DNA from: Siniperca chuatsi
Lineage: Eukaryota; Chordata; Actinopteri; Centrarchiformes; Sinipercidae
Length of the DNA stretch: 64,000 nt
Direction of reading: 5' to 3'
NCBI RefSeq assembly: GCF_020085105.1
Contig: NC_058051.1
Coordinates: 2,190,001 to 2,254,000 of the forward strand
Shown: positions 1-55,243 of the stretch, piece after piece
Position numbering within the stretch: position 1 is the stretch's first letter
Layout: the number at the start of each line of letters is the position of its first letter
The notes under the pieces: generated by a model
Seen by the model: the letters and a program-made list of their open reading frames with translations, nothing else
What the model was told of the DNA's origin: nothing
Databases searched by the model: none
Translations under genes and position numbers: made by a program

Positions 1-179
1 TGCATCCTTCCTCACTGGCGTGTCTTACTGGGACACTTACATAGAAGCAATAATGCACAATAACTCACATTGTCTGCTGTATATAATGAAACTCTTTAGC
101 CAGGCTCCAACATAAAATTTGTTCACACTATACTCACATAACACCCAAACAGTATTAAGTTATTAGAGTTAATGATGGT

Positions 180-185
180 TTTATT
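180..185 (-). promoter_or_regulatory. Poly(A) signal AATAAA of sephs2
   Basis: AATAAA on the minus strand, about 80 nt downstream of the SECIS and 800 nt after the stop codon. It places the SECIS inside the mature 3' UTR. The 160 bases left of it show nothing recognisable. Confidence 0.7.
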
Positions 186-265
186 GATTGTGAAAAGCAG
201 GAAATCTACAAACACAGAGCTTTAGACCTCCAGCAGTCTAAGTCCGACCCCAATCCAAAGGCAAA

Positions 266-316
266 CATCCACTCCACCTGCCCCAGTTGGCTGGGGTTTA
301 AAAGGCAGAGCTTCAT
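266..316 (-). promoter_or_regulatory. SECIS element in the sephs2 3' UTR (form 2)
   Basis: Minus strand, 5' to 3': quartet ATGA (316-313), AG, helix arm CTCTGCCT (310-303), TTT-AAA (302-297), ministem arm CCCCAG (296-291), CCAA loop, ministem arm CTGGGG (286-281), C, helix arm AGGTGGAG (279-272), TG, then GATG (269-266). The arms pair fully, allowing two G-U pairs. ATGA opposite GATG gives the A.G, U.U, G.A, A.G non-Watson-Crick core. The unpaired AAA lies 13 nt after the quartet, and the extra ministem above it defines form 2. The element sits about 670 nt after the stop codon and upstream of the poly(A) signal. The lower helix is weak as read by eye. Confidence 0.92.
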
Positions 317-984
317 AAAAAGGAAGGGTGGGCGGGACTTGGTGCTGGACAGCCAATCAGCTGACATAGACGGACATTCTGAACACCGCCCAGGTGGTCC
401 AAAGGAAGCTGCTCAAGCCTTCCTCTGGGCTCGGTGGGCAGAGCCAGGTGCCAGGACAGATGAACCACGTTCATTCACCCACACGAGACATTAACATCAT
501 ACACTTCCAAAAGAAAAGTCAACAAAAACCTCTGTTCTACGTCCCCACAGCAAAGCACCCCAGTCAAATGATAAAATACTCAAACACTCAAACACACACA
601 CACTTTTCATTATTCGCTGACAAAAATGATTTGGAATGTTTTCTTTTTAGAATTGAAATTCATTTTCCCCAGAAACCTTTTTTGCATTCAGATAAATTAA
701 ATAAAGTCAGTTGTCTATATGGATTGGGAAAGGGAAAAAGGAAAGGCAGAGGTGGGGTAGGACAGCGCACCACCCTTAATTTATATTTGATTCCAAAATG
801 GTGAAGGGTAAGCCTGCAGCTCTTTCCAAAGATGGATAAATAATAGTGTATGCAGTCCATTCCCTCTCCCACAGAAAAAAAAATGCTCTCAGTATTTTGA
901 CCGAAAAGGGGGATGAGATGGACAGCAACATCAACACACACACACGCTCACCAACAATGGGGGGAGGGGGCAGCAGTGCAGTGT

Positions 985-1289
985 CTATGACAAATTGGGG
1001 CTAGGAGCAGGGCTGGTGGAGCTGTTGTCCTGATTTGCTGCCTGGCTTCCTCGTGGTGGAACCTCGATAATGCGGGGCTTGTCAATGATTCGAGCGCGCC
1101 GGTCGCCTTTCTCTACGATCCCGATGATCCACGCTCCGCCCGCCGCCCCCTGACCTCCAGCTGCGGAGCTCTGACTCTTCATCTCCGAGCAAAACTTGGC
1201 CGCCTGCTCTCTGGGCAGACACACCAGCAGCCCGCCTGGAGGCAAGGAGAGGAAGAGGGAGTTTAGGTCACACACTGGGGTTATAATAA

Positions 1290-1320
<31 letters not shown>

Positions 1321-4300
1321 ATATACACTTTCAAACAACAATTATGTCACCGAATTATGGCTAAATCCATGTTACATTATCACCTTCCTCGAAAGCTCCA
1401 CTAGAAGCAGAATATTTAGATTTTGGATGGAGTATCACTTTCAATCCAAAAATGATGACTCATATCAAACATCGTTGCATGTTTACATACTGCGTACTCA
1501 TTCACAGAGATACAGACAAGACCACATTTACTGTGTGTTCATCTCTGTTTCCATACCAGAAGTCTCTGCTGATGTGCCCTGAACCAGGTTGAACAGGTTT
1601 CCACAAGCTTTACTGATGGCAGCCATCTTGGCTAGGATTGGCAGGTTGTGGATGACGAAGGCCACTTCGTTTCGTTGCTGTGCTGCCAGGTTGTTGGCGT
1701 GCCCTAACAACCCGAAACCTGTCACGTCTGTTGCAGCGTGGGCCTGGAACTTGTGCATTAGGCCTGCCGCTGGAGACAAAAACATGAATATGAATGAGTC
1801 AGAACGGACTAACTTTATAAACTTTAATCACAACTATATAAAGCCACAAAAATACTTCAAACGGACCCGAAACCATCTAAAATATCGGCCCAGGCCAATG
1901 CGTGTTCAGTCAATGTGTTATCCCCCCCGCACACACACACACAACTAAATGAAAGACTGTAAGGCTGCGAGTAAATTCAGGTCAATGGTGTGGAGCCACA
2001 TAAAACCATTACAGAATCTCTCAGCTGTAAATGAAACGGTAAATACATTTCCTGAACCCGTGATGACTGCAGGACTTCAGGGCATAATGACCAAAGTGTA
2101 GGCTACCTGTGCGGTTTAGCGTTGCCATGGAGAACATGGCTTCCTGATAGGCCTCTTTAACCTCCTCTTTGGTGACGACTAGCTTGATCTTGTTCCACCT
2201 TTCAGGCTGGTGAGATGTAAAAACAGAGATGGGGGGGTGAGCACAGAAACGCGTCAATATAATGACAACACTGCGAGCAATGTTCGTGTGAGCCGAGTCG
2301 AGGGGCTGACCTGATCGAGCCACTGGTGGGCATTCACAGCCACCTGCGTCCCCAGAGGTTTAGTCAGAACCAAGACGTCACCTGGTACTGCACCATCCGG
2401 CCTGCAAAAAAACAAACCGGGGAAACCATGTATCTCCAAATTTGGTGATCTGCAATTTTTCATACAAACTAAAGTTTAAATGTTCCTTTATCTATGGACA
2501 TGGAACAAATTAATCAGAATACCCAAAGATATGTTTTTTTTAGATATTGTTTATGGCATTTTGCCTTTATTAGATAGTGATGGTAGAGACACAGACAGGA
2601 AATGCAGGGAGAGAGGGGGATGACATACAAACAAAGGTCCCCGGCCAGAGTTAAACTGGGATGCTGTAGTTATGTGGTACGTTACTGTTATTACAATTTA
2701 TTTTTTAATTTACTTGATTTATTTAGTTTTATGACTTTTGGGAGTTCTTTGTGTTACTTATGTATTTGGTTTCTTTGACTTTCTATGTATTATTGTCTGG
2801 GAAAATGTAATTGCAGGTAGAAAGTGGACAAGGAAAAACATGTCAGCATGTGAATCTGTATATAAATTGTACTGCAATACACAAGATGCTGAAAGCAAAA
2901 ATAAGATACAATGCAACATACAATGACATATGCACATTTTATATACATAAATTAAAATCCTGTTCTTCCCGGGTTAATTTTGGTTGGTGCAACTAACGAT
3001 TATTTTCATTATTGATCAATATCCCGATTATTTTCTCTTTTAATCGTGTGTCAGACAATAGTGATTATAATTTCCCAGAGCCCAAAGTGACATATTCAAA
3101 CTGCAATTTTTTTTATCCGACCAACAGTCCAAAGTTTACTATAATATATGACAGAGAAAAGCAGCAAACCCTCACATTTCAGAAACTGGAACAAAGTCAT
3201 GTTTTGCATTTTTTTGGTCACGAAAAGACTAAAATGATTAATCAATTATCAAAATAACTGCTTGTCAATTTTCTATTGATCGACAAGTAGATTTATCGAG
3301 AAACCGTTTCAGCGCCATTGTATTTTACTGTTTACATGGATAGCTGGACAAATGAAGACAGGCAGCTACACTCCAGTTTGAAAGGAAAAAGAAAAAGATT
3401 GTCTCTCTAAACTGATCATTTTACACCAACATACCATATATACTGGGAACTAATAACACAAACGATGGTTCAGTTTCATTATGTGTCATTTTAAGCCATG
3501 GATTTTATATATATATGTGTGTGTGTAAAATTATAATGTTCAGTTTAATATTAACAAACCAGCTCTAGTAAGTAATATTCAATGAATATGATTTAATCTA
3601 CCATGAATAATTGCCATTACCAGAGATGCAGAACCTCAGCAACAGTTTAATTGACTCACATGATGAACTCATTAGGCTGGCAGACGACTGATGCTACTCC
3701 TCCTACGATGATCCAGGGGTTGATCACCGTCTGGCCACCTGTCACAGAAGTCCCTCCCTCCTCTGCCGCATCACGAAACCCTCGAATCATCAGCGGCATC
3801 ACCCGCTCACGGTCCTGTGTCACACATGCACATACAGACGATACTGAATCGTGAAAGGAGACCTTAGTTCGCCTTAAAGAAATCAAAGTATACACATGTA
3901 AAAATCCACAAGTCAAAGCTGTGTTACAAAGATACACTGCACTCACTGTAACGTGCACAAATTAGATTAGCAGAGGACACACAAAAGTGGCCTCAATAAA
4001 TAAAAGCAAAGTCAACAGCTTGGCATCCACCCACGAACACACATAATGCTACCTTGTCATTCATCTTCTGGCTGACACTCAGCAGCATCAGCATGTTGTC
4101 ACACTCTGTGATGCCCATGGCGTAGAGATCACTGAGGACGTTAGCACATGCTATCCTGCCCTGAGAGACAGACAGACAGAGAGAGAGAGAGAGAGAGAGA
4201 GCAAAAACTAGTCAAAAAGAGTTATGACACTGTTGTCATGTCTTAGAAATTATCAGCATTTTTAACATAGGAGACTCAGGTTGGAACCACATTTTACTGT

Positions 4301-7043
4301 GTCACCTCCTGAATAACATTCAGCTTCAAATTGGCTGGTGCTCCCCTTCAGCTACTATTCTTTAAAATAACTTTCTGTAAATTAAACAAACAAAAAAGGA
4401 GGCGTAGGTCCAATGTTCAATTGTTGTCCATTCATTCAATTGTTTCATTCAGTCCGGAAAACGAGAATGGGAAAAACTGATCAGATGTTTGTTTTGTTGG
4501 ATTTTAAAAAAAAGGAAAATGATGGTGTGCATCCCTGTTTTCATCTTGAAGTGGGTAATCACAAATCTTACTTCTGTTTTGTGGATTTCTGATTTCGTCA
4601 CAGTGCGCATGTGCAGCCATAAACTGTAAAGTGCAAGCACCTTGCGGAAGCACGTAGACTCAAAGAGAATCTTTTTATTTATAAAAAAGGCAAATTATAA
4701 GGCATTTGATTTTTTTTTTCTGTCAGATTCATCAGTGATGACAGACGGACTGGAGCCCGTTTTATGAATGTAAGAGTGAAGTACAATATTGGACTCACAA
4801 ATAGTGTTTCCTACGAATAGAAATCTGCAAGGTTTCCTGAATTAGATCCCAGGATGAAATCCTCACCGATGTGTTTTTAGGCATGGGAGTTTATACAGTT
4901 CCTGTAATGATGCAGATTTGACCCATTTTATCGCTTTTTTGTTTTGTTTTCCAGATTGAATGAAATAATTGAATGAGCGGATGACACAAGGACCCTCAAA
5001 CTCATTATCCTGTCAGTAATCAGTTACACATGGCCATATACACAGGTACAGCGCAGTTTACAAGGATTTAGGAGAGTTTTCCCATTATATAGTTTAGATT
5101 TAAAAAACTGTAAAATAAAACAGAAAATTAGAATAAAATCATGATCGACATTACACAATGCTTCCTGGGTTTTATAATAATCCCATTTCATCCAGTATTT
5201 TTCACATTTGTCTTTCTGTAGTAAGAGGGTGCAGTACAGGTCACCTTTTCCACAAAGAATAGATAATTAACTGAATTTATGTAAACGCACATGTTACATG
5301 AAGTCAGCATTTGGTGATGCAGGATTTTAACAGCAAATGCATCATAAAATACATATTTCTTATGGTATAGTAAACGCTAAGTGCACAGTACACAGTTGTT
5401 GAATGACGCTATACTGTACATATCCAACCGACACTGTTAGAGTACATTTCTGTTAGGGTGCGAGGGAAAAGGGCAATAAAAACACCACAACACAAAACAG
5501 TAGAGCTGCAACAATTAGTCAATTAATTTATTATTCAATGGACAGAAAATTAATTGCCAACTATTTTATTTAATTAACGAATCAAGCAAATAATTGGCAG
5601 ATTAATCAGTAATTAAAATGATCGTTACTTGCAGCTCTACAAAATAGGGTGTACACATTTCTAAAACTGTGTGAAAAGCATGACGCTTTTCACACATAAA
5701 CGATTTACATTAAACACTACATGCCCTAGTACAATCACGTGTGGCTGTTATGTTATTGCCCGCCTTCACACCCCCACCCCGCTTACTGTAAGCGGATGAG
5801 TGTGTCACCACGAATGTGTCTGTGTTTGGACTGCCTTACTTCCTGTATAGTTTCCCAACAAACAAAGGCAGGGTGCATGTGTGCAAGTGCTTCAGGGAGG
5901 GAAACACCTGCCAGTAAACTCACCATCATGTAGGGATCCTCCACCAAAGGGTAGAAGAAGTCTGTGGTCTGGACCAGAGAGAGCCCTCCATGCCTCAGGG
6001 GAATCACACAGCAGTCCATCCCCACACCTGGAAACACACCTCAGTGAGGGGGGAAAGACACTTACACTACGATAGCCCTCACTTATTTAAAGTGTTCAGT
6101 TTTTGGGGAGAGTGAGAATGCTACTTTAGTAGTTTGTGTGTGTACTTGTGGCGGTGTTGTTTAATAAAAGGTATTCATTACAGGAGTTATATGGGATTGT
6201 ATTACCAGTCCAAGAGTTTCTATGTTTGTGGTCACTCAGTGCAACTGCACACTCTGCTCTCCACATACTGTAGGTCGCTACATCTCTAAAAGGCAGTAAA
6301 CTAAGTAGTTTACTGCACTTCCACTCAGTGTTGCGAAAGCTTTACAAGAAGAAATGTTTGACCAAGAGCATGAACTTTGCACTCAAAGCATCCAAAATAT
6401 TTCTGCTGAATCATACCTAGCGTGTGGTAATTTGACAACTCACGGAACTTCTTGAACACTCTTAGCTAGCTACTGCCTGTTACATGCATTTACGATGTAG
6501 CTTCGTCATAACTTACGACTGTAAGGAGCTTAACCTATATGTTAACAAATTAGATAGCTGCGGATTATTGTTTAAAAACAGATTGTTTTTATTCGCCCCT
6601 GTCTGTCTGCCTGTCTATCTGTCAGTTGAGCTGCCACATGAGTTAAGACAAGCTAGCATGGTTAGCAACAGTTACGCTAGCTAACTGACGTTAACCACCA
6701 GGGTTTCTGACTATATGTAAGTTACGGGACACGAATAGCTCTGCTAATTCAAAATGTGTTTCTTACCGAGTCGGGGGCCGGGCAACGGTTGGCCGAACTC
6801 CGATGGTTGGTCTCCGGCCTTCCCAGTTCCGTCGGCCCGGTCCGCCTCCAGTCCCGCCAGGAGTTTGAGCAGAGCCTCCTGCGGGACCTTGCAGCCTCAT
6901 CCCTTCATGTCCGAAAAGGCTGTGAGACGGAACCCGCGCTCCAGGCCGTGCTCCTCGGGTTTGAAAGGCTTGTATCCGGGGGGAAAGCACCCCTCGGTTC
7001 CCACAGCCTCTGCCGGGGGAGGCGGGGAGGTTGAGCCTGACAT
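985..7043 (-). CDS. sephs2: Selenophosphate synthetase 2, selenoprotein (8 exons)
   Basis: Makes selenophosphate from selenide and ATP, the selenium donor for selenocysteine-tRNA synthesis in the cytosol. Coding exons (minus, 5' to 3'): 6767-7043, 5924-6027, 4053-4160, 3660-3814, 2311-2401, 2107-2206, 1557-1769, 985-1235; they sum to 433 codons, so 432 residues. The start ATG at 7043 has an in-frame TGA seven codons upstream. The active-site motif reads [11 protein letters not shown], with TGA as codon 49 and the catalytic Lys at 52. Later segments include [51 protein letters not shown] and the C-terminal [11 protein letters not shown]. The TGA plus wording such as ALLKLLAGL and [15 protein letters not shown] favour SEPHS2 over SEPHS1, which carries a non-Sec residue. 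ETS-like sequence (CCGGAAGT complement) lies near 7397, upstream of the gene. Confidence 0.97.
1283..1321. repeat. (TAA)n microsatellite in sephs2 last intron
   Basis: Imperfect ATA/TAA trinucleotide run about 40 bases upstream of the last sephs2 exon in transcript sense. Confidence 0.85.
2534..2690 (-). repeat. tRNA-derived SINE-like relic in sephs2 intron
   Basis: Contains the percomorph dispersed-repeat string with GACAGGAAATGCAGGGAGAG followed by CCGGCCAGAGTTAAACTGGG. The latter resembles a degraded reverse-complement tRNA B box (GGAGTCGAACCCGGG in better-preserved copies as I recall them). Family name not assigned. Confidence 0.5.
2985..3316. mobile_element. hAT-like MITE, GAGCTGCAAC-type family (copy 1, near full length)
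   Basis: Starts GGTGCAACTAACGATTATTT and ends with the inverted equivalent, CGTTTCAGCGCC. The interior carries the family's typical strings TTTCCCAGAGCCCAAAGTGA, CCGACCAACAGTCCAAAG and AGAAAAGCAGCAAACCCTCA. It is non-coding and lies in a sephs2 intron. Other copies are at 5501, 43943 and 55764. Confidence 0.75.
4159..4202. repeat. (GA)n microsatellite at sephs2 exon 3 acceptor
   Basis: The GA run (CT on the coding strand) directly precedes the exon 3 acceptor and can serve as its polypyrimidine tract. Confidence 0.8.
5501..5639. mobile_element. Short MITE of the same family, with target-site duplication
   Basis: Inverted ends TAGAGCTGCAAC and TTGCAGCTCTA. Flanks CAAAACAG (5493-5500) and CAAAATAG (5640-5647) match at 7 of 8 positions, as expected of an 8-bp hAT target-site duplication. 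At 139 bp it is an internally deleted derivative of the copy at 2985. Confidence 0.78.
6897..6899 (-). other. sephs2: In-frame TGA selenocysteine codon of sephs2
   Basis: On the minus strand the reading runs ATG AAG GGA TGA GGC TGC AAG, encoding M-K-G-U-G-C-K. The open frame continues past the TGA for the rest of exon 1 and the following seven exons, and it aligns with the catalytic Sec of vertebrate SEPHS2. Automatic gene callers are likely to stop here or to begin the gene downstream. Confidence 0.96.
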
Positions 7044-8816
7044 GACTGCAGGTGGACCACTTCAAACGCACAACGCCAGTCCCCGCACACCGGTAAATAA
7101 GGACGCCTGAATGAATGGACGTGTGTCCTGCGAGCGTTGCTTGAAACAAGAGCCCAGTGTAAAATTAACCAAAATAAAACAAATGCGACTTCCTGTCGGA
7201 ACTTTCGCCGTATAAATTCACAGTGTACATGCCTATGCAAGATTCACAGATCTTAAACCACACACCTTTACCAAATGACTTGGACATTGGACTTGGATTA
7301 CTACAATATTAGAAAAGGGTAATTTAAACCCATAACGAAGGCACAGTCGTCAGAGATAGAGGAGCAAACGTCTTATTTTGAAGGTAGAATTTATAACTTC
7401 CGGTCCCTCTGTGTCTCTCGTTGTTCAACTTGACGCAGCACGTAACGGCTGTAAAGCGTTACCATGTGCTCTCGCTGAAAGGGGTTTCATCGCGCTTTAT
7501 ATTTTTTTAGTCGACCCATTTATATCTGTTCTGGGATTATTACTTTAAAACGCAAAGCACGTTGTAATAATTACATTGTAACCGCATTAAATATTGCCGT
7601 TGTGATGAAGTTTTAAAGAAAATAAAAAGGAAAACAATTATGATTTTACCCGAATCGTCGTAAATGGTTACGTCGCAGTTGTACTACACTCAGGGTACAC
7701 ACACGTCAAAACACACGAGAGCTAATGAATAACTGGTTTATTTGTTAAATCTTCAACAGTTTTAAACAATATTCTTTGCATCAAATGATCTATAATCACA
7801 GACAATATGCACACAAACTGTGAAGAGCCGTCAATGTGCTTACCTTAAGACAGATAAATAGCTAGGTGCCACAGGTGAAGATAAGACAGAATAAGGGGCA
7901 CAAAAAGGGGCTGTGTGGGTTAAGGGTCAGGTCTAGCATCAGAGATAAAGCAGTGGTAGTCAAAGATGTACACAGGCACAGAACACAGAGAATGGCTACT
8001 TTTTTCAATAAGAGTAAATCCATCTCTAATACATAATAATACATGTTTTGAGGTAATGCAGCCAGCAACATTTATAACCAAAACATATTTGAATATTCTA
8101 TATGATTTAAAGCTCACTAGGTTATTCACATTGTGATGTGTTTCCTCCTTTGAGAGGAAAAGTACCCCTCTAAATAGTCACGTTTTTCAGCTCAGGCCCA
8201 ATGATTACTGATGTGTATATAGCATGGATGATGCAGTCAAAGTATACACACTTGCTCCACAGTTTGTGGTTACCTCCTCAGTTGCCACAACGCCACTGGA
8301 GCGAAGAGGGACGAGAAATGGGACTGAGGCAAGAGATCAGGGATGATGTACAAATACTGATGGAGATGTGCATCAGCGTGCCATCTCAGAGGCAAGGCAT
8401 GGGGAGAGGGAAGAGGGGAAATAAAAGAGCAGGTGCTGGGAGACAAAAAGAATGGCGACAAAAGGATGGGAAAGCTACAGCAGAATTTGAGTCCAAGGAG
8501 CAGTTCTAGGAAAATACCATGCTGATTATCTTGCTGTTGTTCTTTTCTTTCACTTGTCATCTGATTGCCACTTGTCTGGATTCCAACATATTTGATTTTT
8601 TATTATTTTCTTTTAAATGGTAAGATCCACAGAATGTTTTCAGGTTTGCGTATGCGTGTTTGCAAGGTCGAGAGAGTAAGGTGTAACTACCAAACATGTT
8701 TTTCCAGGCTTTGCCCGGAGCTGGGACCAGACACGCTGAACGCCTAAAACGTAAATATATTGTATATATATCTGTATGTGTGTGTTGGGGTCATGGTGTG
8801 CTGAACTATGCTCATG
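7044..8816. other. sephs2 promoter region and ikbkg 3' UTR
   Basis: The interval between two tandem minus-strand genes. From 8816 down to about 7720 it is best read as ikbkg 3' UTR, ended by AATAAA at 7742-7737. The remaining 300 to 700 bases, with ACTTCCGG near 7397, are the likely sephs2 promoter and 5' UTR. No conserved coding sequence seen. Confidence 0.6.
7737..7742 (-). promoter_or_regulatory. Candidate poly(A) signal of ikbkg
   Basis: AATAAA on the minus strand, about 1.07 kb after the ikbkg stop codon and within 0.7 kb of the sephs2 start. Confidence 0.5.
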
Positions 8817-10069
8817 TTACTGTATACAGTCCATGACATGTATCTGCAGCGTGTCCATATCTGGAGCCTGGTACTGGCACTTAGGACAACATAAATCTGG
8901 CAGCTCCTCAGCTCCAGTTGCCCCTTGATCACCGACTGGTACTAAACCCTGATTGCGGAACGAGGGGGCAGGGGGCACCGTGTTGAAAGCTGCACCGGGG
9001 AACACACCTAAGGCGAAGGAGAGAGAAAGCATGTTAAAACAGCTTCTTACCAGAAAAAAAATCTTGAGAAAAGACATTTAAAATTACATTTCCCATTTGT
9101 TTTAGTTTTAAGAGTCATGGTGCATAGTGGTCACTACAGTAGCCATTTTCTTGTATATGTGTGCGTTTCATTGGTAAAGCTGCAAAACAGCCAAGGCAGT
9201 GGACAATACTCAGTGGTGAAAAGTACATTTACTCAAGTACAATTCAGAGTATTTCCATTTTTTGTTTCTACTTCACTACATTTCTGAGGGAAATATCGTA
9301 CTTTTTACAAAACATATGAGTTGTTAAAATGATACTTTGTAAATAATTAAACCAACAGGATATAAAGCACTTTTATTTTTTAAGTAGTAGTATTAGCAGA
9401 TTTCTTTGGGTGCTTGAGGGCAGCAGAACAAGCTGTAAACACAACATATGACATTTCCTATTTACACATCAAGCAGTTATGGAGCAACATTATCATTCAG
9501 TGTCTGATGAATGTCAGTCCAATATTCTCTGTTTTTGGTCTCCACCAACTCCTGAGGGAAATATCTGTCTCTTTAGCTGCTAAATGCTCCGCTATGTTCA
9601 CCAGCTGGTCGCTAACTGTGTCTGTCTGCTGCTTGGTGCTGAGCAGCTCGTGTACAGTGGGTTTTAGAGCTTGTTTGCTGAAAACAGCTGCCTGGAAAAC
9701 ACTGAAACTGAACCATAAAACAAAAACTAGGAGCTGAAAGAGGCTAAAAAGCTCCGTACAGCTGCAGAGTCTCTGTAGGTTCAGAACTATCAGAAACACC
9801 TTTCACATTAGTAGTAGTTTTGTGCTTTCTCGTCTCTCCTTCTGTCGCTTTCAGCAGGTATTTCTGCCTCCGGAGCTGCAGAGTCTGGATCTGTGGTTGT
9901 GGGCCGCCTGCTGCCCCCGTGTTCCTGTTGTTATTGGCTCTGTTACTAATACTGTCATTATTATTCCTAGAGCTGTTATTCCTATTATTATTAATATTAA
10001 TGTTACCTCTACCATTACATTATCACTATTTTAAAAATTCTAGGTGGTATTTGCATTGTGCTCCCCCCC

Positions 10070-10101
<32 letters not shown>

Positions 10102-13100
10102 GCTCACACGGCAGCAGCAGATGGCCGCCCACCACTGAGTCTGGTTCTGCTCGAGGTTTCTGCCTCTTAAAGAAAGTTTTTTCTTGCCACTGTCGCCAAG
10201 TGCTTGCTCATGGTGGGATTTATTGTAATTAATATTATAAAGAGCACGGTCTAGACCTGCTCTATAGGAAAAGCGCAATGAGATAACTTCTGTTGTGAAT
10301 TGGCGCTATATAAATAAAATTTAATTGAATTACACACAGTCTACTGATTTATTGTTAAGATATAAATAATGATGATTTAAAATCAGCTCTACCCCGACCA
10401 GCGACAACATTAAAATGTTGCTTACACTGCCAAGCAATTATAAGTTCAATTAAAAACCATGACAACCAAGATGGCTGGCAGTAGATCAGACATTTCTTTA
10501 AAGAGGACCCTTGTAAGTAAACAAAATGTGATAATATCAAGTAACATCGAAGGAATAACATAATTCTTACAGTTTTCAAATATTGATTGTGTGTGAGCAG
10601 GAAATTACAATCAATCAAGTGTCCACTGAATTGGACATCATGCATCAGTAAGTATATTAAGACTTTAAAGCGTACTATTATTGCAGTGTGTGTACTACAA
10701 AAATAATAATTTTGTGCAACTTCTGAGAAATGTGAGAAAAAGCAGGAGCGGCAAGTCCTGATCCTTCTCTTTGCAGGAGTGACAGTAGAGCTTTTTGTTA
10801 AAATTTGTATTAAAATATGTTACGCAACACGCAAATGCAGGCTGTCCCCCAGAATGGTCACATCAATAACTTCTTGTAAAAACTGGCGTTAATTCATGCA
10901 TGAATGGCCTAAAAAACGTGCATTACTTCACATCTACGTGCGTGTTATTTTGAATGTTTGCATTTGTGTGTGTGTGTGTTGGTTGTAATGTACCTTGTGG
11001 AGGGGGAATGTGTGGGGCCCGTGGTGGAAAGTCTTCCAGGTGTCTCAGCTTCATTTGCTCCATACGTGCACTGAGGCAGAGGTGAACATAGACAACTTTT
11101 ATGTTTAATCACGCTTTAATAAATGTCTAGAAATATTGATATTTATTACCACGCAGAGGTAGCTACAGCTCTGACTTCAGATTTCAAGTGTCTGTCTTGA
11201 CAATGAGCCATCAGCCCTGCATTTGATGGCAGCTGCAGTCAAGCTACAGTCGCCTCAAGATGCTGATGCAGCATCTGATTAGCAATTGAGATTGAGGGCA
11301 GGGAGAGAAATTCAGCACACAAGGACTATGTAACCCCGACGTATCAGAAATGACGTCAACAGAGATTTGAACGTCCCTCAAAATAGACAGTTGGAGCACA
11401 CAGCAAGACAGACTGAGCTATCGACTGCGTGACCGCTGCATAAACGCCCACATTCAGGACATGAATAATTAACATAATGGAAATAGGCCTGCATTGTGCT
11501 CCCCAGAGATAACTTTTGTTTACCGTGATGTGGCTTCCTGTTTGAGCCTGTCAATATCAGCCATGGCCTGAGTCAGCTTATCCTGCAGCTCCTCCTTCTT
11601 CTGGTTCAGCTTCTCTCTCGCTTCTCGCTCCGCTAGGAAATCTGCCTTGTAGATCTCAGCCTGAGCAAACACAAAGACAGGGAGAGAGGGAGGGAGATAT
11701 GAATTTATTCAACGACAGCCATTTTGTTCCATTTCAATATACCTGTAATACATAAACAAGTTAAAATGTATGTGTGGCCGATACAGGCTGATTTGTGCAT
11801 AACTGACAGGTGACTCAGAGGACGGGCCATGAATTAACTGCCATGATGTTCAGACTGTGATTTTCAGTGTGTTTACTTAGCTTAAATGCTTGTCACAATC
11901 CTCCTGCTCTCTAATCACAAATACTGTGTTGCAATGCTGCCGAATTCACATAGTTGTTCTCATTTACATATTTTTCTGTTGTCAGATAATCATTATTTTC
12001 TGATCACGACATCGTTAGATAAAATGAACAAAACTGCAGGTTTGTGCGGTGAAATCCGCTGAACAAAGTGATTTGTGTGCAGATATGCTCAACAGCTATA
12101 TGACTGTACCTGTGCAGTGAGGACAGGAATAGTCTCCAGTGAGCCTTTCTGTTGCTCCACCTCCTCCTTCAGTTTATCAATCAGGTCCTGCTTCAGGGCC
12201 AGCGCTCTCTCTGCATCCTCTAGTCGGCTGCACAGGTCTCCTCCCTGTAAGACAAACACAGATGAATGAAGACAAAAATCCATATGCTAAATATCAAAAC
12301 TTATGAGGGTAAAATGATGCTTACATGTGTTTTTACCTCACTCTTCAGTTTAGAATCATAGTCTCTAAAAAGACATGTGTAGGCGTGCTGCAGCTGTGTC
12401 AGTTTTTTCCTGAGAGGAAAAAAGGGAAACAGAGTTTTACCGTACAGTACAGTACAGTATACCAAATCTGAGGTGTCGTGCTGGGGAAAATATTGAACAT
12501 TTTTGAAATCCAGCTGCAGTAATTACCACAGTGAAACAATTACCATCACAATTCTATAACGACAATCAAACATTGAAATTGTATGTCATTATTAAGGAGA
12601 CCCCGAAGTCCTGAAAAATGATTTTCTTAATCTTGCGCGCAGAAGATGAGATAATAAAATTACATTTAAATTCAAATGGGTTATCTTTCGTGAACAAGTT
12701 ACTATCTTGTTTGCACAAGATAAAAAATAGATTTTTCGGGACTTCGGCGGCTCTGTATATGATGGTTTTTATTTTCCTGTTCGCTGCATGTTTAATAAAA
12801 TGTGACAGGTTTACCACTCATTTCTCTTATTTAGAGAAAAGCCTTTTTTAATGCATGTGGAAGAAATCTTTCTCTTTTTGGAATAAATCTTTTTGAATAT
12901 CGCAATAGTGCAGAAAGTGAATAAGCAGTTGGGTCACTGCTTTCTGTGTGTGTTGAACCCACTTCTCCTCTGTGACGACATGTCTCTCTGTCTTCAGGGC
13001 CTGCTCCAGGCTCTGGGTCTGCAGCAGCAGCTTGTCCATGGCCACATGATGCTGCTTCCTCTGCTGCTCCTGCTCCCGCTCTGCCACCTGCAGGGCCTTC

Positions 13101-16092
13101 ATCGTACTGCACAGCCTACACACAAGTAGAGCAGAGAGAAACAAATCATCAGCACACATGCACACCGACAGGTGGACACATTTAAGTCTCTACATATATA
13201 TATTCATGCTGACGTGACGTGACAACTTACTTTTCTTCCAACATTTTGCGTTCTTGTTCGCTTTTCTCCAGGCAGCTCTGTCTCTCATTCAGTTCTCCTA
13301 ATAGGGAAGTTGCTTGAGCTTTCAGAGCCTCACAGTCCTTGGCCAGCTGCGGAAATACAGAAAGCTTTATGGTATCTGAGTGACAGTCGATATTTTAGGG
13401 CTGCTTGCTACAGCGCCCCCATCTGTAACTTTGTAACCTCAGTAGGTTCAAGGTTCAGCGTTATTGTCATTATACAATACAGAGTCATTTATTTATGGTG
13501 GTGTGCAGAGGATGAGGTGAAGTTGAGGAGTCTCACAGCCTGCGGAAAGGAAACAGGCTGTGGCTGGGGGGGGGTCTTTTAGTATTTTTTGGGCAGTGCG
13601 CAGGCTGGGCTCATCCCACCGATATCATCGGTAGATGGGTACCAATGATGAGCCCTACGGTCCTGGGCCGTGCGCATCCCATGCCAGTAGTTGTATTATT
13701 TGAAATTTTTTGATTATGGTCATAGGAGTAGAAATCACAGCAGTTCATAATTCATACCTGGGCACAATCCTTGTCCTTCTGTTTGAGCAGAGCTTCAGTT
13801 CTGTCCCGCTGAGCTGAACTCTTCTGCAGGTAATCAAGCTTCTCCTCCAACTCACGATACCTGCAGACATGACGGATTCATAACTGAACTGGAGTTTTTT
13901 AAAAGTAAGACACATATTTTAATCTAACTTCCTATATAAACAGATATAGGTATTATTACAATATATATGTATCACTACAATAAAGTAGGGCTGAACAATT
14001 GATCATTTTTATATAGAAATTTTAAAGGGGTTTTCCCAAGAGCCACAAATGTATACAATTTTAACTTACATAATAACAATGTCTTAATGAGCTGTAGTAA
14101 GTAAGTAAAGTTTATTTAATATAGCACCTTTCACAGAGCAAGGTCACAAAGTGCTTCAAAAGTCAAACTGTTACACAAAATTGTACAAAAAGTGAAAGTT
14201 TAATCCGCCGTTTGTCGCTGGCAAATGAACTCAGCTGTTGCTAATTAATGTTAATTCTGTGCAGAGGTGGAAGAAGTATTCAGATCATTTAGTAAAATCA
14301 AAGTGGCAAATATAGTAAAAAGTCCCATTTTCAAAATTTTACTTAAGTAAAAGTACAGAAACATTAGCAACAAAATGTACTTAACGTATCAGTAAAAGCA
14401 ATAGGTGTGCAGAAAAATTGGCCCTGTCAGTGTTAGTGTGTCAGTGTAACTGCTTCATATTCTGTTGGGTAGTGTCACCTATCACAGTGCATTAAAAACT
14501 AATCATACGTCATGTATGTAAAATCTTAACCTGAAAAATTACTAATAACTAATAAATAAATAAAGTGGTGTAAAAAGTACAATATTGATCTCTGAAATGT
14601 AGTGTAGTAGAGGTTTAAAGCATAAAATAGAAATACTCAAGGGAAGTACAAGTGCAGGAACACCACTCTGTATCTTTTTTTATGTTTGAAAAATTAAGAA
14701 CTGGGCTGTGCCTTTTTGTTTTTGTTCATGAAAGACGCCTCACTTCAGTCTCAGACATGTAGCTAGCGGGGAGCTCTGCAGTTGTCAAGTAAAGATTGAA
14801 TGACAGTTGGTGAGCAGAGTTGTCAGAATTTCACAATTAAACTTCTGAATTGAGACGTCCGGGATTAACAGCTGACTGAGTGTCAGTGTGATGCTGACGT
14901 TAACGGTAGCTTAAGCAGCTGCAGTGCACAGTGTCAACAGTAGCATTAGGTGTCGCCACTTTTGAATATTATATATATTTGAATATTGTTGAGTAAAAAC
15001 AATATTGATCAGTAAAATCACAAATAAATACTTTCCTCAAATCATTCAAGTCTAAATAAATTTGACATAATTTCCTGTCCATTTGGGTTTGCCAGTATGA
15101 TGTTAAAAGGTAAGCTAACAAAAGGTAAATCTTAATCCTTTAATGTAAAGACAAGATAGTAAAAAAAATCTTCTAGTACTGAAAGAATAATAAATTGTTG
15201 TAATGGTATATAATATACAACATATGACAGAAAAACATGGATGAAAAATAGTCAACAAAAGAAAACAATATATATATATGTAAAAAAAATAAATAAACAA
15301 CATACAGGAAACTGAGTTAAAAATGAAGAGACAGGCAGGCAGCACCACATTGTGGCGAAGAGACAGAACTGTAGAAAGAAGGCATGCACACAGTGAGAAA
15401 GAGAAGCCACACAGAGCTGCGGCTCACCTGCCCTGTGTGGCCTGAAGCTGCTCTGTGAGTTTAGCCAGGCTAGAGCTGGAAAAAGGAACAGAAAGCGGGA
15501 GGAGGAGGAGGAAGAGGAGGAAGACATCTCAAAAGTGAGTCTTTTATTAAGCAGAAGAAAGGCAGAAATAAAAAAAGCATGCTAGTGTCTGCAGATATAC
15601 AGTATAGTTAAGAATAATTTAACAGCACTCAGTCCAAAAGCTGCTAATGACAATTAGTTAAAGACAGAAAGTCAGTTTGGTGTCGTTAGTTTCAAACAAT
15701 TCACTGAAGTATTTTGTATTAGGAGGGAAAATGCATCATACCAGTCAGAGGAGTGCTGTGCCTCAGAGCGATGTTGAACAACCTCCTCAGTAACACTGCT
15801 TGCCTGTAAATAAACATTCATACAAGTCTTTCAGATCACAGATAAGGCAGCTGATTCTTGTGTCTATGCATATCCATCTTTATTGTACATGTACACGGAT
15901 CTATAAGTGACACACAAGATGTAACAGAGGGAAACAATAGCAATGAAAATGACAATGATTATTGATGAGATGCTGTCAACAGGCCTCATGCACGAACCAA
16001 TGGGACAAACATTTGTTTTTAAGTTGCACTTGTATATGTGATATAATTAAGAGAACTTGTCGTATTCAGCAGTTTTCTCCTATTTAGAATTT

Positions 16093-16176
<84 letters not shown>

Positions 16177-19100
16177 TTTGCCATCCACCACAGTGGGAAA
16201 ACAATTATAGTAGCATGCAGCCTTTTATTCTATATTTTAATGCCTTAATATGAATGAATTGGGAGTTATATATGCAACCAAAATCAACTATAATGTGAGT
16301 TTGACAGACATGGACATTTACCAGGCACAGAGGGTCTAAAGGAAGGATGCTATTGGTTTTTGTTTTTGGAGCTTAAACCCATACTAGGGACAAAAAGTCC
16401 AGATATCTCTGACTTTGATTTGGACCATTCTTTTTTTTAGTGTGTCTCCTGTCAGTCCCTCAACTTAATGGATGTGTTTATACTCTCTTCAACCAAAATT
16501 AGAATGGAACAATATTGCCTACTGCAGCTTTAATTTATACTGAACTACTGGAGTACCACTTTAAATCGAAACAGACAGCTAGCTTGGTTAGCTGGGCAGT
16601 TCCCCCAGAAGTAGATCCCTATGCAGTGAGCAACAACAGCTAAGTGTTAAAATGAGTTTCCTGAATCTCTACAACGGAGGTGACGAGTGCAAAGTTAGCA
16701 TGACCCATTAGTCAGACTGGCCACAATTATGAGAAAAAGACCCAGGTAGAAAAATACCAGAATTTCCCTGACTTGAAATACTCGTAAGAGTAAAGCTCAC
16801 AGAAAAAGTAAGAAAAATCCCCCTTCTTTGGACATCTTCTTTTTTCACATGTCATCAAGCGCAAGTTTGTCAGTTGTCATTGCTGTTATTTCCTTATGTC
16901 TATCCTGCTCATCTGTAGTACTACATCACTGCGCTGGTTCCTGGGGTACAATTGGTACGTGTTTGGATCACAGTGTTACCTGTGCCTGGGCCAGTTTGGC
17001 CTGCAGCTGGTCAATGCAGCGCCGCATTCGCTCTCTCTCGTTGTCGCACTCCTCCCTCTCCTTCTCCAGCTCTTCATTCTTTCTCCTCAGCTCTCTCATA
17101 CCTTCCTCCAGCTTTTCTTTGTGGCTCTTCAGCAACTGGAGGAACTCGTTTGCACCTTCCACAGGCTGCGGAGAAAGACATGAAAGTGAAAGAACCAGGG
17201 GGGAGTGGATGCAGGGAGAAGTGATGATAGAGGGGAAGTGGACCGAGACAGACCACGTTCACCGTGGGCTGGAGAACCGACACCAAGCCGAAAGCAGAAA
17301 TACACCAAGATGCGAGAGAACAAGAGCTGAGGTTTACAAAAGGAGACAGAGAGGGATTTTAAAAAAGGGATACAGCGGCAGATTAGAGCTGTGTATTAAT
17401 GCTGTACTCCACTCAAAGTAAGACGCAGAGAAAGTTCTCGTGTCCAACTACCATTCAATCCAACGTTCCTGCTCACAAGTATAACGAATAACATGGACGA
17501 CCTCTACATTTATATTGCCTAATGTAAAACACAGTTCCCCGTAACATAGCTGGTGCAAAGTTTATTATTAAAACGGTGATTAGTGCCAGGTTTTCTATTT
17601 GGAGTGCCGACTTCAAAGGCCAGCCCATATTATTTATCCGAGTAGAACGTCAGGATTTCCAACCTCTGCCTGAGTGCAATGAAAGATAAGGTGGGGTGAA
17701 GCGTGAAACTAGAGGTGGGACGGCCACAGAGTGGGTGTCGGGGATCTCAAAGCGTGATGGAGTGAGCAGGCTCACCTCGCCATTTTCCCTGTCCATTTTC
17801 TCCCCCCATATCCCTGAAAGTGAGGTGGGGGGAGAGGGGAGGGCACTACCCAAGGAGCTATGCACACTCGCATCACCCTACACACACACACACGGACGTA
17901 CCAGTTAGATGAAAAATAAACAAATACATCAAAACTGAAATCAGAAAACAGCGTCACACATCTTACCAGGCTGCGAGGCGGCATGGTCTGTGTGTGTTGA
18001 TCCGTCTCTTCAACTCTCTTCCTCTCCCGCTGATCTAGAGTCTGAAAGACACAACAGGAATAAGTGGTTCCAATGTCCACAGGAAACATTTTAGAAGCAG
18101 GGCATCTATTCTTCGGCAGACGCAATTCTAATGTAGTTTCAAGTTGTTTCCCCACATTTTACGTCTTTTACGAGCACACCGAATACACGTTTGCTCATTT
18201 AGATGTAGTAACAGACGCTTTGTGGCTGAAACCTTAATGACAAGCTTTTGTCACCAACTTTCTCTGCGATCACTCATTTTAAATGTCAATACAAACGATG
18301 CCACTGCGCCTCTGCTGTCATTAATATGATCACAAAATAATGATTTGATCAGCAGTGCAGCAGCTTGGTAATGACTGCTGGATAACATGCAGTATTTATG
18401 AGCCATGATCAAATGATGATGATCACAACTACATTATGAGTTTGCCTGTATCAAGACACAGTATGGGTGATCACAGACAGCAGGACGGGACAGAACAAAC
18501 ATTTAATGGGCTGAGACTCAGCAGAGTAACCGGGCTATGTCTGTTCTACCAGATGTTGGCAGTGATGCACAATTTTGTTGTTTGCCAACTAAAAAGAGGA
18601 TGAAGATGAAGAGATGTAGTAGTTTTGCTGCGTATGTGTGAAGACAAAGCCAGTAACACATGAAATGCATCATTAAATATCAATTTTTAGTCAAATGAAA
18701 ATAAATATAGTCAATTAAACGCATTCACAAGCTGCAAGCTGCTCCGGCAAAAAAAGACCCGGCATGTAAAGACAGTGGAGCGGAGAAAAGAGCCTGCGAT
18801 CGAGGCGCTCTGCTGACGGGCCAGGCGGACGCTGACACACTGGCTAGAATGGCAGCGGATCCTGCAGCCGCCATGTTTGGCATTAGCCGTTACTTGTCTC
18901 TATATACATCTGTCTGTCGCCACACGTTACGTATGTGCTTCCTAATATGGTGAAATTACAGTAACTATTACATCAGCAATAGGAAAACTAACCAGCGAAT
19001 ATACCAACACGTGATTATAGAATACAACAGCGGAAGATATGTAACTAATATGTTAAAATGTAAAAACACCTGACAATGTGTGAATATAAGGAAGCAGATG

Positions 19101-19908
19101 TGTGAATCTCAAGTAGCTAACCTGTGGTCCGTCCAGCGGCCCGTTCCTTGCTGGGCGCCCCTGCAGGTCTTCAGTCTGGCTGGAGCTGCAGCAGTGGTTA
19201 GAGGAGGAGACCGGTCCGTTCACCAAGCCCTGTAAGGAGTGGTTCTCCTGGGCCAGCCTCTCCACCAGGGCCCTGGCCTCCTGGAAACGACAGCTGAGAA
19301 ATTCTCGTTCCTCTCTTGTCCTCCGCTGCCATCCCTCCATCTCCTCACAGCGCTGACGCAGGGCTAGGTTGCTCCGCCGCAAGGCCTCTGGAGGACAGAA
19401 GGAAGAAGGTAAAAGGACAGGTAGGAGACTGACACGTCATACACAGTGACACAGACAAACAGGTAGAATTAAAGACACGGGGGCCATAGATTAAACCAAG
19501 AGTGGGACAGGAAACTAGATGTAGAAGGTTATTCTAATTTTGGTGTGCAGCTTTTAGGTTGTGATTTCCAGAGCTTAAAGAGAGACTTTTGAAAGATGAA
19601 ATAACACATTGTCCCTCTCTTACAAATAAAATGTTGAAACCAGTAGCTTATGATGGCTAATGTTAGCAAACTTTATATAGACATCGCTGTGTAACTGATA
19701 ATACCGAGTCAGTTTGCTGACTTTATGACTTTACTGTTTACACTATGTTTAGCCACGTTTACCATTATACCAATATTGCCAAGTTGAAGTTCATTAGCAG
19801 TCAAACACATGTGTCAGTTTAATACATTCAGGGGTTTTACAGCCCACAGTATTACTTGGTCTGGTGTGACCAGTGGCTTATGGTGGCTAATGTTAGCTAA
19901 CGTTAGAT

Positions 19909-27025: not shown

Positions 27026-29794
27026 TGTCTGAGCAACGGCAGCATTGGGGAAACAACATAAACACGAGGAGACGGACTTGACTGACCGAATCGGAGAGAC
27101 GCCCGCCCACAGTGCAGAAAAATCCACGGGGAGACATGTGGTCTTAATATCAGCCATAAATGGTACGAGCACATTCACAGAGGCAGTTATCAATCCTGGG
27201 CAATGAGTTTTTCCCTGCAAATGTTGTAAGCTATAGTTATTTTTCCGTTAGCAACAACACAGTGTCACGTTTCCATTTGCTTTTCTTGTTGTGTTTTCTT
27301 GACAACACTGGGCTCGTTATTTTCCTGCGCCAGAAGAAGCAGAGACAACATTAGTGAATTTATTATGGAGTGAATGGCCGACTGTTAAAGCTGTTACAAG
27401 TAATAACCGAGTACTTTATTGATACATGATTTTATGTAGGCCATTTTTTGTCATTGATAGTGTTGCACATAGTTTTATTTCCAGGTTTTGTAACTTCTAA
27501 CCGTAGGCTTTCAGCTGTGCTCATCACTTGCTCACACAGATATTACACTGATTCCTTATTTGTCCATTTGTAAGGAGTATATAAACACTCAATAAATGGT
27601 TTATAACACACTAAAATATAGTTGTAGGCAGCACTGAGGACATTTTTAATTTTATTAATATATTTGATAACAATTATCAAATATATACACAAATATACAA
27701 TGAAGCATTGGTAACTGGTGAATAAACAGTTCAACAAAGCTTTAATCACGATTAATGATGTTGATTACACACGTTATATAACATTTCTTAACTGTTTCTG
27801 AACTCAGTATAAACAGTAGTTTGACAAAAATAAATCTTAACACAATCACCACTTACTAGTTTTCTTCCAGAGCTTTCAGCCTCATCTTGTGGTCTTCATC
27901 AGCTAATGGAGTAGGCTCAGTTGTGACGGTGGGTGAAGAAGATATATTTGTAAATAAATAAATAAATACTTAAAATAAATACAACTATTACCTACAGTTA
28001 CTGTAATATTTCATATTCATTCGTTATCTGTTTATACACCAGTTACAGACGCTTCACAGGAGAAGTTATAATAGCTGACACATATATTAGCAGACACTTA
28101 AAAGTGTCCATCTATCTTAAAACCACATTTTAAGTGTTTATATATTGCTTAGAAATGTGAAATGGAGGGTCAAAAGACAGCGTTGCCATTCATCCTTCTA
28201 CCGACCTGTATATAGTTTGTACCTAGAGTCCAGTTTCTTGTACATTTTACCAGAGCTGTAGATACAGTTTGATACTGGTCTATTAATAACAGGATTCTAC
28301 TGTATGTTGTAAAGAACAGGTTTAGCTTATTGACTGTCCTGTTCATTTTCTAATGCCTTTTACACTGATTGAATGATATTCAAGTAATATTAATTGTGTC
28401 ACCAGGTTTTTTGTTTCATCAGTGTCTTAAAACTTATTTATTGAGCAGTCGTGGCCTGTTTTATTGCTGAGCTTAAGACAAATGTACTCTAATTGCAATT
28501 TACTGTGATTTTGGTTTCCATTTGTCAATGCAATGCAAATTCTGTTAATTCAGATTCATAGCGAGGAACAACTTAACATTAGAAGGGATTATAGTGATGC
28601 ATTATATTTGGGCGTTAAATTATTTTTGAAATTATCACTCTAAAAATTGTTACCGGTTCCAGATGTCACCTCCATGTGCTTAATAAAGAAACTTTGGCCA
28701 AGCTACTGTCTGTTTCTGCTGTTATCTGTGCCACTTTGCCCCGGCTCGAAGAAATACACAGCAAATGGCAGATATTTTCAACAATAAAATTTATTGCTTG
28801 GCTTTGGCTTCCCTCCGAGCCAGATTCCAAACCAAACAAACGCCTCATTACGACAGCAACCACACGTCTAACCACAAGTTGATCAATCTTTTTTTTTTAT
28901 ATATATATATATATCACTGACAATGAAAGCACTTTTCATGGAGACAGAAAAACACACCGACCTTGTGACATCTCTGAAGAACCCCTGCGACACCGTGACA
29001 GCTGCAGTGTAAAAATGTACTCGAAAACAAAATCACCACTTTGCATAGATTCACCCCCTTTTGTTCTCCAACAACGCGCCACACCATAGCACGGACACAA
29101 GACTGTTACACAGGAACAAAACACTTTCGTCAGGTTTGCCCTCGGTTTTGTTAATATCAAGAATAGAGATTTGACACAATAGGCACACCATACGAAACGA
29201 TATCAAACACACAATACTATGTATGTGTCATTATAAAGGGATAAATGATTTATTAAATCAAGTCTTTGTTTTATCTGTACAACAAAAACGGTACGCTGTA
29301 CTGAGTGGAATTCCTGATCTCTGGGACACTGTACACAGTCGAGCACATGTCAGCACTGTCACGTTGGGTTGGAAAGGTAGAAAATATCACATCAGCACAA
29401 CAAATCCCCACTATCATGTGAAATCATTTTCCATATGTCACCATGTTTTTCAGTATGCGTACATTTGTCTTGTATCCAGTAATCTTGTAGGCGAGATTTC
29501 CATGAGAAGGAAGTCAGAGCGATATAGGTTAGTAACACACTACTTTTAAAAAAGGTAGAACTAGTTCTGTATCGAATGCCACTTTTTAATGCTTAAAAGA
29601 GCAAGAAGGGCACACAAAAAAGTGAAGAGGATTAGGCAAATACACTTTAAAATTATGCAAGAACTTTGCAATCCTAGCTCCACATGGCTCTGGAAATGAT
29701 CTGCTTCACTGCTCGGTTCAGCTTGAACGTGAAGAGTGTTTTTCTTTTCTTTTTCTTAAAGGTATTTCAGAGGAGGAGAAGCTCTTCTCTCTTC
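27026..29794. other. Convergent 3' UTRs of tmed4 and plpbp
   Basis: No coding sequence seen. It contains a MITE relic at about 27571-27640 (TATAAACACTCAATAAATGG then TTTATAACACACT, related to the element at 57877), several plus-strand AATAAA hexamers (27591, 28682, 28783) and a short AT run at 28898-28914. Confidence 0.55.
28783..28795. promoter_or_regulatory. Near-palindromic poly(A) signal readable on both strands
   Basis: AATAAAATTTATT gives AATAAA on the plus strand (28783-28788) and on the minus strand (28795-28790). It could end tmed4 with a 1.8-kb 3' UTR and plpbp with a 1-kb 3' UTR at the same point. Sequence seen; use inferred. Confidence 0.45.
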
Positions 29795-32325
29795 TCAGTG
29801 TCCTGACACAGTGAGGTGCTGCATCTTCTTGGCGGCCTCTTCTGACACCGTCTTGGAGGATTTCTCCGGGCTGGGAGCTGGACTGGGAGCCGGACTGGGA
29901 TTTGGAGTGTTCGCTGCACTGTTGGGATACTCCCTGTTGCCGAATATAATACTGCCCACTCGCACGTTGGTGGAGCCCACCTCGATCTTCAGCACACGGG
30001 AGCACAGAAAAAAAAACGTCGATGAACTCTTGATGACAGCAAGAGTCTTAACGAGGAGGATATTCTGACTTACATGCTTTGATCGTGTTGTTATGGAATC
30101 AAATAATGAGAATCGTATTCAACAGACATTTCAAAGAGGGGGATTCATTCGGGCTATTATTTGCTTCCATATTTGTGCTTAGAAATTGTTCGTGAATGCT
30201 GATAAGAAGTGACACTCACCGCATGTTCAAAATCTGTGGACATACCCATGCTGAGTTCCACCTCCTCCAGAGGCAGCTTCAGACTGTCACACACCTCCTG
30301 CCTCCGACTCAGCAGCATCTGCCAGAGCAGGTGTGGAGAGATAGTTCATCTTAGACACCTTAATTTGGCAGGTTCAAACTGGGAATATTTAGGTTTTGGA
30401 GGCATAAAGACTAATTTTAGTTTCTGTTTGTTTTTTTTAAATATACTCCGATGTTGTTGTTTTAGTTGACTATGATATTGATCTAACGTATAGTTTACCA
30501 CAGTATTATTGTGCGCACAGAAAAACCATCACATAAATGCGATGCAGTTCAAACATAAAATTTAAAAACGCACAAAAAGACTCCAAAACCACATGGTTTT
30601 GGAGTCTTCTGTACCTGAAAGTCTGGGTTGGGGCCCAGGGAGAGGTCGTAGCCGTAGCGCCCGATGGTCATGAGTCCTAAGAAGTGCAGGGCGGAGCAAT
30701 GGGACACAATGTGTTTCACCGTGTTCACTGTCTCCTCTGGTGGCAGGCCGTGTTTACCTACAACAAACATTGGATATACTGTTGGCGAACAACTGACTTT
30801 GTGTTCGTGATCGGCTCACGACACCAGAGCAGAAGAAGTAACACTAACTCTGTTCTCCGCTGGTGTTGATCTGCACCATGACCTTTAGCGTCTGCGTGCT
30901 GGCTCCTCTGATGCGCTGCCATGAGCTGTTGACCTTGTCAGCCAGTTTCGCAGAGTCGACTGTCTCCACAAGGAACAGGTTTGGCACGCCTGGGAACACA
31001 AAGACAAGAGGTTGTTGTTTTTTTCTTAACATGCAGCTTGAGCAGCAGAGCTGACAATCACTCACCCAAGAGTTTGTTGACGTTATTCTTCTGTAGATGG
31101 CCGATAAAGTGCCACTTGATCTCTGGACATGAGTCTAAAATCTAGATGAGGGGAAGAAGAAACACTGTAAAAACGTGTCACAGACCGGGGTGGTGAATCA
31201 ACTCTACCTCAGAAAACACGCAAACCCACCAGAGGATCTGAAGCTTTGTCCACGAGTTCATTAACCTGGAGTGGAGACAGAGGAAGAGGTCAATCTCTCC
31301 ATTATTTCCCACCTTTATTCCTCTCGGAGTTTTACGTTGATGCAGCGACACTTGGAAAGTTTGGAGGGATGCAGACCAGCAGCGCTCTATACTCACATAA
31401 TTTTCTCCAAAGTTACGCTGCCCTTGTCTGTAGGCCTCCACAACCATGTCTGGGGGTTTTGTCTTGCTGACAGCTACGAGGCGGGGCGGCACAGCTGGTA
31501 GTGTCTGAGGAAGGACAAAACAGGCTCATTTGTCATCCGTATCAGTGAATGTATCAGTAGGGGAGCTCAGTGTGTGATGCAGCATGTTTGCAGGGGTATT
31601 TTGGCTCTGGCAGAACAGTGACTCAGCCCTGTCAGGATCCTGCAAAACAAGGATGCAACTGAGTGTTTCCTGGCTGCTGCTATGTTCAGAAGATGTTACA
31701 CCTCATGCAGTCAGCTCTAATGATTTAGATCATTAGTAACAAGCCACTGAGAGACATCTGGGTGATATTGGAAAGATGCTGTGCATTCCTACACGCGTTG
31801 ACCTACATATCAACCTTGATGCTATTTTAATGGGGGAGCACATCATGAAAATGACATCTTCACTAGTGGACATGTTTCACAGAGCTGTGGTGTGGGGAGA
31901 GGCTGGCGCTGTAGACGAACAGCCTACAAACATGCCAAATGCCAATCAAGAAGCCATGACTACAGGCATTATTTCTATGCAGCAACGAGCATGCAGATGC
32001 AGTCTGTAAGCATAACATAATCCTCCTGCTCCCACGCATATTCTGCCGCCACTAATACACCACGCACGGTGTTATGAAAGTGCTGCCACAAGCCCGACTG
32101 TCTCCCAACCAAAGGTTGAGGTGTTTGGCAGCCTTACATAACGAGTCGTGATGCCGCAGCACGAGCTTTTTCGGACCCCGACAGCGGAGCGACGGCAGCG
32201 GGGCTCCTGAGCGGAGCCTCCCGGGCTGCAGTTACCTTGGGCCGCCGTGCCGCCGCCTGGTTCACCCGCTCCACTACCGACTGTAGCGCCTTCCCGATCT
32301 CCTCCGACATTGCTGCTCTCCACAT
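29795..32325 (-). CDS. plpbp: Pyridoxal phosphate homeostasis protein (PROSC/YggS family; 8 exons)
   Basis: Binds PLP and buffers its level in cytosol and mitochondria; human deficiency causes B6-responsive epilepsy. Exons 5' to 3': 32236-32325, 31397-31504, 31230-31265, 31066-31141, 30849-30989, 30615-30757, 30220-30318, 29795-29986; total 295 codons (294 aa). [10 protein letters not shown] contains the PLP-binding Lys at residue 44. [62 protein letters not shown] and [20 protein letters not shown] follow the single-domain TIM-barrel fold. The start MWRA matches the human N-terminus; a second ATG five codons on is possible. The C-terminal tail is a low-complexity [11 protein letters not shown] stretch that makes it longer than the 275-aa human protein. 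Convergent with tmed4. Confidence 0.96.
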
Positions 32326-40136: not shown

Positions 40137-40263
40137 CCTCTTTCGCCAAGCTTACGTCCAGCCTTAGTGGAGACAGAAGAAGCTTGAGTCATTAGCTTGG
40201 ACATCACACAACTACAAGCGCTAAAACAAAAGGCTAAGACATTCAGCAATGTTTTGTTAAACA

Positions 40264-43536: not shown

Positions 43537-55243
<11,707 letters not shown>

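Follow-up and report, generated by a model that had tools for sequence, protein, structure and literature searches.

The window analysed here, a 64,000-nt stretch of the Siniperca chuatsi genome, carries a selenophosphate synthetase gene, sephs2, on its minus strand, with a coding span of 7043-985. The gene was modelled from genomic DNA alone, and its exon ends were placed by comparing the sequence with what is known of the family. Coding exon 1 (6767..7043) opens with an ATG at 7043 and closes at a GTAAGA donor; this is the first ATG of its frame, since an in-frame stop lies just upstream at 7064. Exons 2 to 7 (5924..6027, 4053..4160, 3660..3814, 2311..2401, 2107..2206 and 1557..1769) are each bounded by AG and GT, while exon 8 (985..1235) follows an acceptor AG and runs to a terminal TAG and the 3'UTR. 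Once spliced, the gene amounts to 1299 nt, or 433 codons including the TAG, and encodes 432 residues with a single internal stop; all seven introns (7/7) have GT...AG ends. A sequence-only reading of this DNA had proposed eight exons that together close to 433 codons, and the rebuilt model of 1299 nt with seven GT-AG introns agrees with it. These eight coding exons give sephs2 the multi-exon structure of an SPS2a gene. The 3'UTR spans about 800 nt, from the end of the TAG at 985 to an AATAAA poly(A) signal read from the sequence at 180..185. Judged at the level of genomic DNA, the locus appears to be a complete, functional-looking vertebrate sephs2 of the SPS2a type.

An in-frame TGA at the Sec/Cys position of SPS proteins

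The spliced product scored 270.7 bits on the family model TIGR00476 (SelD/selenophosphate synthetase), whose cut-off is 125. The six other NCBIfam models listed fell short of their cut-offs, among them two narrower SelD models (NF010705, 220.9 of 291; NF002098, 130.9 of 299). Both the AIRS and the AIRS_C domain were found in the product above their cut-offs. Among solved structures, six distinct sequences matched at E<=0.001, five annotated as selenide, water dikinase and one as putative selenophosphate synthetase. The best match was human SEPHS1 (3fd5), with 628.9 bits over residues 26-418 and no gap at the TGA, followed at a distance by 5l16 (the "putative selenophosphate synthetase", presumably a protist protein) with 292.7 bits, and by bacterial-type structure entries with 79-95 bits. 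Because of the scores against TIGR00476 and human SEPHS1, the reading frame is judged not to be a chance ORF, and the assignment to sephs2 made in the earlier reading holds, both on the TIGR00476 score and on the position of the TGA at the Sec/Cys/Thr site of the family.

The internal stop lies at 6897..6899, which reads TCA on the plus strand and TGA on the minus strand, and forms codon 49 within K-G-U-G-C-K, just where an in-frame TGA inside G-U-G-C-K had been described. The genomic frame around it is open for 54 codons before and 50 codons after, as had also been claimed. At the aligned site human SEPHS1 reads K-G-T-G-C-K and 5l16 reads K-G-C-S-C-K, that is, Cys; the site was compared in three of the six structure sequences, namely two SEPHS1 entries and 5l16. 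The gapless alignment to the Thr of SEPHS1, together with the Cys of 5l16, places the TGA on the catalytic Sec/Cys site of the SPS family. By this alignment, codon 49 corresponds to a position held by Sec or Cys in SPS proteins and by Thr in SEPHS1. The same gapless alignment of the flanking residues argues against splicing that removes codon 49, such that the TGA would never be translated. Exon 1 does contain five GT dinucleotides before and eight AG dinucleotides after the TGA, but none of the strong donor motifs sought before it in this exon (GTRAG, GTAGG and GTATG) was found, and we regard such splicing as exceedingly unlikely.

For annotation, the consequence is practical. If the TGA is taken as a terminator, the product shrinks to 48 residues; the first Met beyond it, residue 96, is a false start. 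A gene caller that treats TGA as a stop would report sephs2 as a 48-codon gene or place its start too far downstream, and the earlier remark that a standard gene caller would truncate or mis-start this gene is reasonable.

A SECIS-like hairpin in the 3'UTR

The sephs2 3'UTR contains a hairpin with SECIS core features, as expected of SEPHS2, at 267..316 on the minus strand. This SECIS-like element, which the sequence-only reading did not mention, combines an ATGA/GGAT core with a 9-bp helix, an AAA and a 6-bp apical helix, has a folding energy of -20.5 kcal/mol, and lies 669 nt past the stop codon and about 1820 nt from the UGA. The SECIS core motif is ATGA...AAA...GGAT, and the arrangement of hairpin 316-267 is that of type II. 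A SECIS-like scan, whose rules were drawn up after the candidate had been spotted by eye, scored the hairpin with 11 pairs. Over both strands of the window the scan returned two further matches, at 5345-5303 on the minus strand, in an intron, and at 27700-27765 on the plus strand; both lie outside the sephs2 3'UTR and were set aside. Ten shuffled single strands gave three matches in all. When the 984 nt between the stop codon and the window end were shuffled base by base, 7 of 2000 shuffles contained a match.

Other measures did not single out the hairpin. An Rfam scan of the whole window at the gathering score gave no match, and one of positions 1-7200 at E<=5 did not report a SECIS; two SCARNA7 matches in the latter, scoring 17 and 13.6 against a gathering score of 65, were taken as chance. 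The 91-nt stretch holding hairpin 316-267 folded no better than its shuffles (z -0.40, 71/200 as good).

The hairpin also bears on whether the TGA could stem from a mistake in assembly or sequencing, or the locus be a pseudogene. The model does rest on assembly sequence rather than on reads, but the sole internal stop in 433 codons sits on the Sec position, the seven introns keep their GT-AG ends, and both the SECIS-like hairpin and the AATAAA are in place. We give next to no credence to either an error or a pseudogene.

A stem-loop directly after the UGA

Directly after the UGA, at 6840..6899 on the minus strand, the mRNA is predicted to form an SRE-like stem-loop. Howard et al. 2005 is reportedly the source for SRE stem-loops at SPS UGA codons. 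We compared the fold with synonymous shuffles, that is, 1000 permutations of synonymous codons within sephs2 exon 1. The stem over codons 49-68 reached -29.2 kcal/mol (z -3.19), and 4/1000 shuffles were as good. Overlapping windows were matched by 5/1000 (codons 45-68), 15/1000 (codons 49-66) and 17/1000 shuffles (codons 39-72). Codons 21-40, taken as a control, were equalled by 882/1000 shuffles. Against dinucleotide shuffles of 6900-6820 the stem was weaker (z -1.60, 18/200 as good). The stable stem-loop (SRE) near the UGA that characterizes SEPHS2 is thus present here when measured on synonymous shuffles and less marked on dinucleotide shuffles. According to PMC4561486, every eukaryotic SPS gene with a UGA has an SRE stem-loop. 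The hexanucleotide that follows the UGA is GGCTGC.

Selenocysteine machinery and a sephs1 paralogue in the same assembly

The window belongs to an assembly of 718.8 Mb in 65 contigs, which also contains a tRNA-Sec with anticodon TCA, located with the RF01852 profile and then with ARAGORN. The profile gave 15 listed matches in the assembly, six of them over the cut-off and the best with 73.1 bits; ARAGORN, run on three of these loci, called the best a tRNA-Sec; at the matched positions of the remaining two it called tRNA-Ser. Exons of the SepSecS family were represented by seven matches in order on contig C22. RF01852 also matched in 14/14 control genomes, in five of them over the cut-off, and the SepSecS family matched in 3/14 (Bacillus subtilis and two archaea); matches to either family are unspecific on their own, because both also occur in control genomes.

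Searching the genome with the sephs2 protein returned at least 15 matches, eight on C10, which are sephs2 itself, and seven on C4. The C4 gene reads K-G-T-G-C-K and is identified as sephs1 because of the Thr at the Sec site; the genome thus holds a separate non-Sec SPS1 paralogue, as in jawed vertebrates. Two SPS genes, one of them a multi-exon Sec copy, are the pattern of jawed vertebrates other than placental mammals (PMC3316567, PMC4561486). Compared by eye, each of the seven sephs2 introns has a counterpart at the same position in this gene. Sephs1 has one extra intron (L027 9399-9258, on C4), which lies immediately behind G-C-K and three codons beyond that for Thr; none is present at that place in sephs2 (6899-6885). 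The SECIS-like scan found no match in the approximately 1.7 kb after the sephs1 stop; elsewhere at that locus it gave one weak match, on the minus strand between exons 7 and 8 (sephs2 numbering).

A Pfam AIRS_C search of the assembly gave four matches, located on C6 and C24; it did not pick up sephs2, whose AIRS_C domain is split over exons. When the sephs2 protein was compared by tblastn with these four AIRS_C loci and the seven SepSecS loci, 0/11 gave a hit at E<=1e-3, and the four loci on C6 and C24 are probably other AIR-synthase-type genes. A scan of prokaryote genomes with the sephs2 protein produced 13 pattern matches and no tblastn relative; its reach extends to close relatives only, which makes it uninformative on bacterial SelD.

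Decoding of codon 49 and dependence on its own pathway

Taken together, these features make it almost certain that the locus is a vertebrate sephs2 (SPS2a) in which the UGA at codon 49 is read as Sec by means of a SECIS hairpin in the 3'UTR. Ribosomes reaching codon 49 would insert selenocysteine delivered by tRNA-Sec, an insertion that would be enabled by the 3'UTR hairpin some 1.8 kb downstream in the mRNA, and the stem immediately 3' of the UGA probably works against termination. The sephs2 product would then convert ATP and selenide to selenophosphate, the selenium donor for Sec on tRNA-Sec. We infer with high confidence that this animal decodes codon 49 as Sec; the enzymatic activity of the product and the role given to each hairpin are predictions as well. 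Since selenophosphate is needed for Sec and the enzyme itself carries Sec, synthesis of the enzyme would depend on its own product. The sequence-only reading had described a protein that depends on the pathway it feeds, and the TGA site, the SECIS-like hairpin, the tRNA-Sec and the SepSecS-family exons support that view, with Sec insertion as its deduced step. The loop, in which a selenoprotein is required for making selenoproteins, is real and long known.

Ribosomes might instead read through the TGA by inserting some other amino acid in place of Sec, which has been proposed for the SECIS-lacking SPS1-UGA genes of Hymenoptera. A stem is indeed present after the UGA, and non-Sec read-through of SPS UGA codons has been put forward in PMC4561486. 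Here, however, a SECIS-like hairpin occupies the 3'UTR, the assembly contains a tRNA-Sec, and sephs1 exists as a dedicated non-Sec paralogue; the hexanucleotide also differs from the GGG-TG[C/T] named in PMC4561486. We therefore consider non-Sec read-through very improbable. A mixed outcome seems quite unlikely as well: with the help of the stem, a fraction of read-through might occur independently of the SECIS. A single mRNA would then yield the Sec enzyme as its main product and, in small amounts, a non-Sec isoform with an SPS1-like role, despite the presence of sephs1. This would be the ancestral double function proposed in PMC4561486.

Sec insertion at codon 49, our preferred reading, also fits what has been described for other vertebrates. 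According to PMC3316567, the SPS2 of every vertebrate was found to be a selenoprotein, and non-mammalian vertebrates and the platypus carry a single, multi-exon, Sec-encoding SPS2a. A multi-exon, Sec-encoding sephs2 with an in-frame UGA is, on that account (PMC3316567), the usual state in vertebrates and already known. Like the SPS2a/SEPHS2 genes of non-mammalian vertebrates, as described in PMC3316567 and PMC4561486, the gene studied here has multiple exons, a Sec-UGA near the N terminus, a 3'UTR SECIS (here SECIS-like) and a stem-loop at the UGA; in the features compared, these published descriptions reveal no difference. The spacings are similar to published ones: the distance from the stop to the SECIS-like hairpin is 669 nt, compared with 555 in opossum SPS2a and 596 in SPS2b, and that from the UGA to the hairpin about 1820 nt, compared with 1542 and 1805 (PMC3316567).

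The relationship to SEPHS1 combines likeness and difference. Sephs2 aligns with human SEPHS1 (3fd5) over residues 26-418 and has seven intron positions in common with the C4 paralogue, but unlike both it has a Sec codon where SEPHS1 has Thr. It has a SECIS-like match in its 3'UTR, of which the C4 gene shows none in the approximately 1.7 kb after its stop, and it lacks the intron after G-C-K. PMC4561486 describes how SPS1-Thr was derived from SPS2 when jawed vertebrates originated, and kept its intron positions. The SelD proteins of bacteria and protists (TIGR00476, 5l16) belong to the same family and are more distant, with Cys at the site in 5l16; in bacteria the Sec signal lies within the coding sequence, according to PMC4561486.

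Neighbouring genes and repeats

The minus strand also carries ikbkg (NEMO), at 8820-19440, upstream of sephs2. Its NEMO N-terminal domain was found at 19056-19436 (PF11577, 65.3 bits) and its C-terminal zinc finger near 8888, where the best match was NF-kappa-B essential modulator (E 4.2e-14). In humans, IKBKG is X-linked. PMC3316567 places opossum SPS2a on the X and speculates about a marsupial rearrangement. The linkage of sephs2 and ikbkg might then be ancestral instead of due to such a rearrangement.

Also on the minus strand, Pfam placed an LSM-domain gene at 34746-35030, a C2H2 zinc-finger gene at 38571-40151 and a Rab-GAP TBC gene at 46340-46669; the first of these resembles snrpg. Pfam gave no match for 6/10 window ORFs that were searched. 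The peptide at 31181-31525 on the minus strand, for which Pfam likewise had no match, resembles the PLP-binding protein PLPBP. A long (CA)n/(GT)n repeat occupies 45000-45480 and is visible as VCVC/HTHT runs in the list of ORFs.
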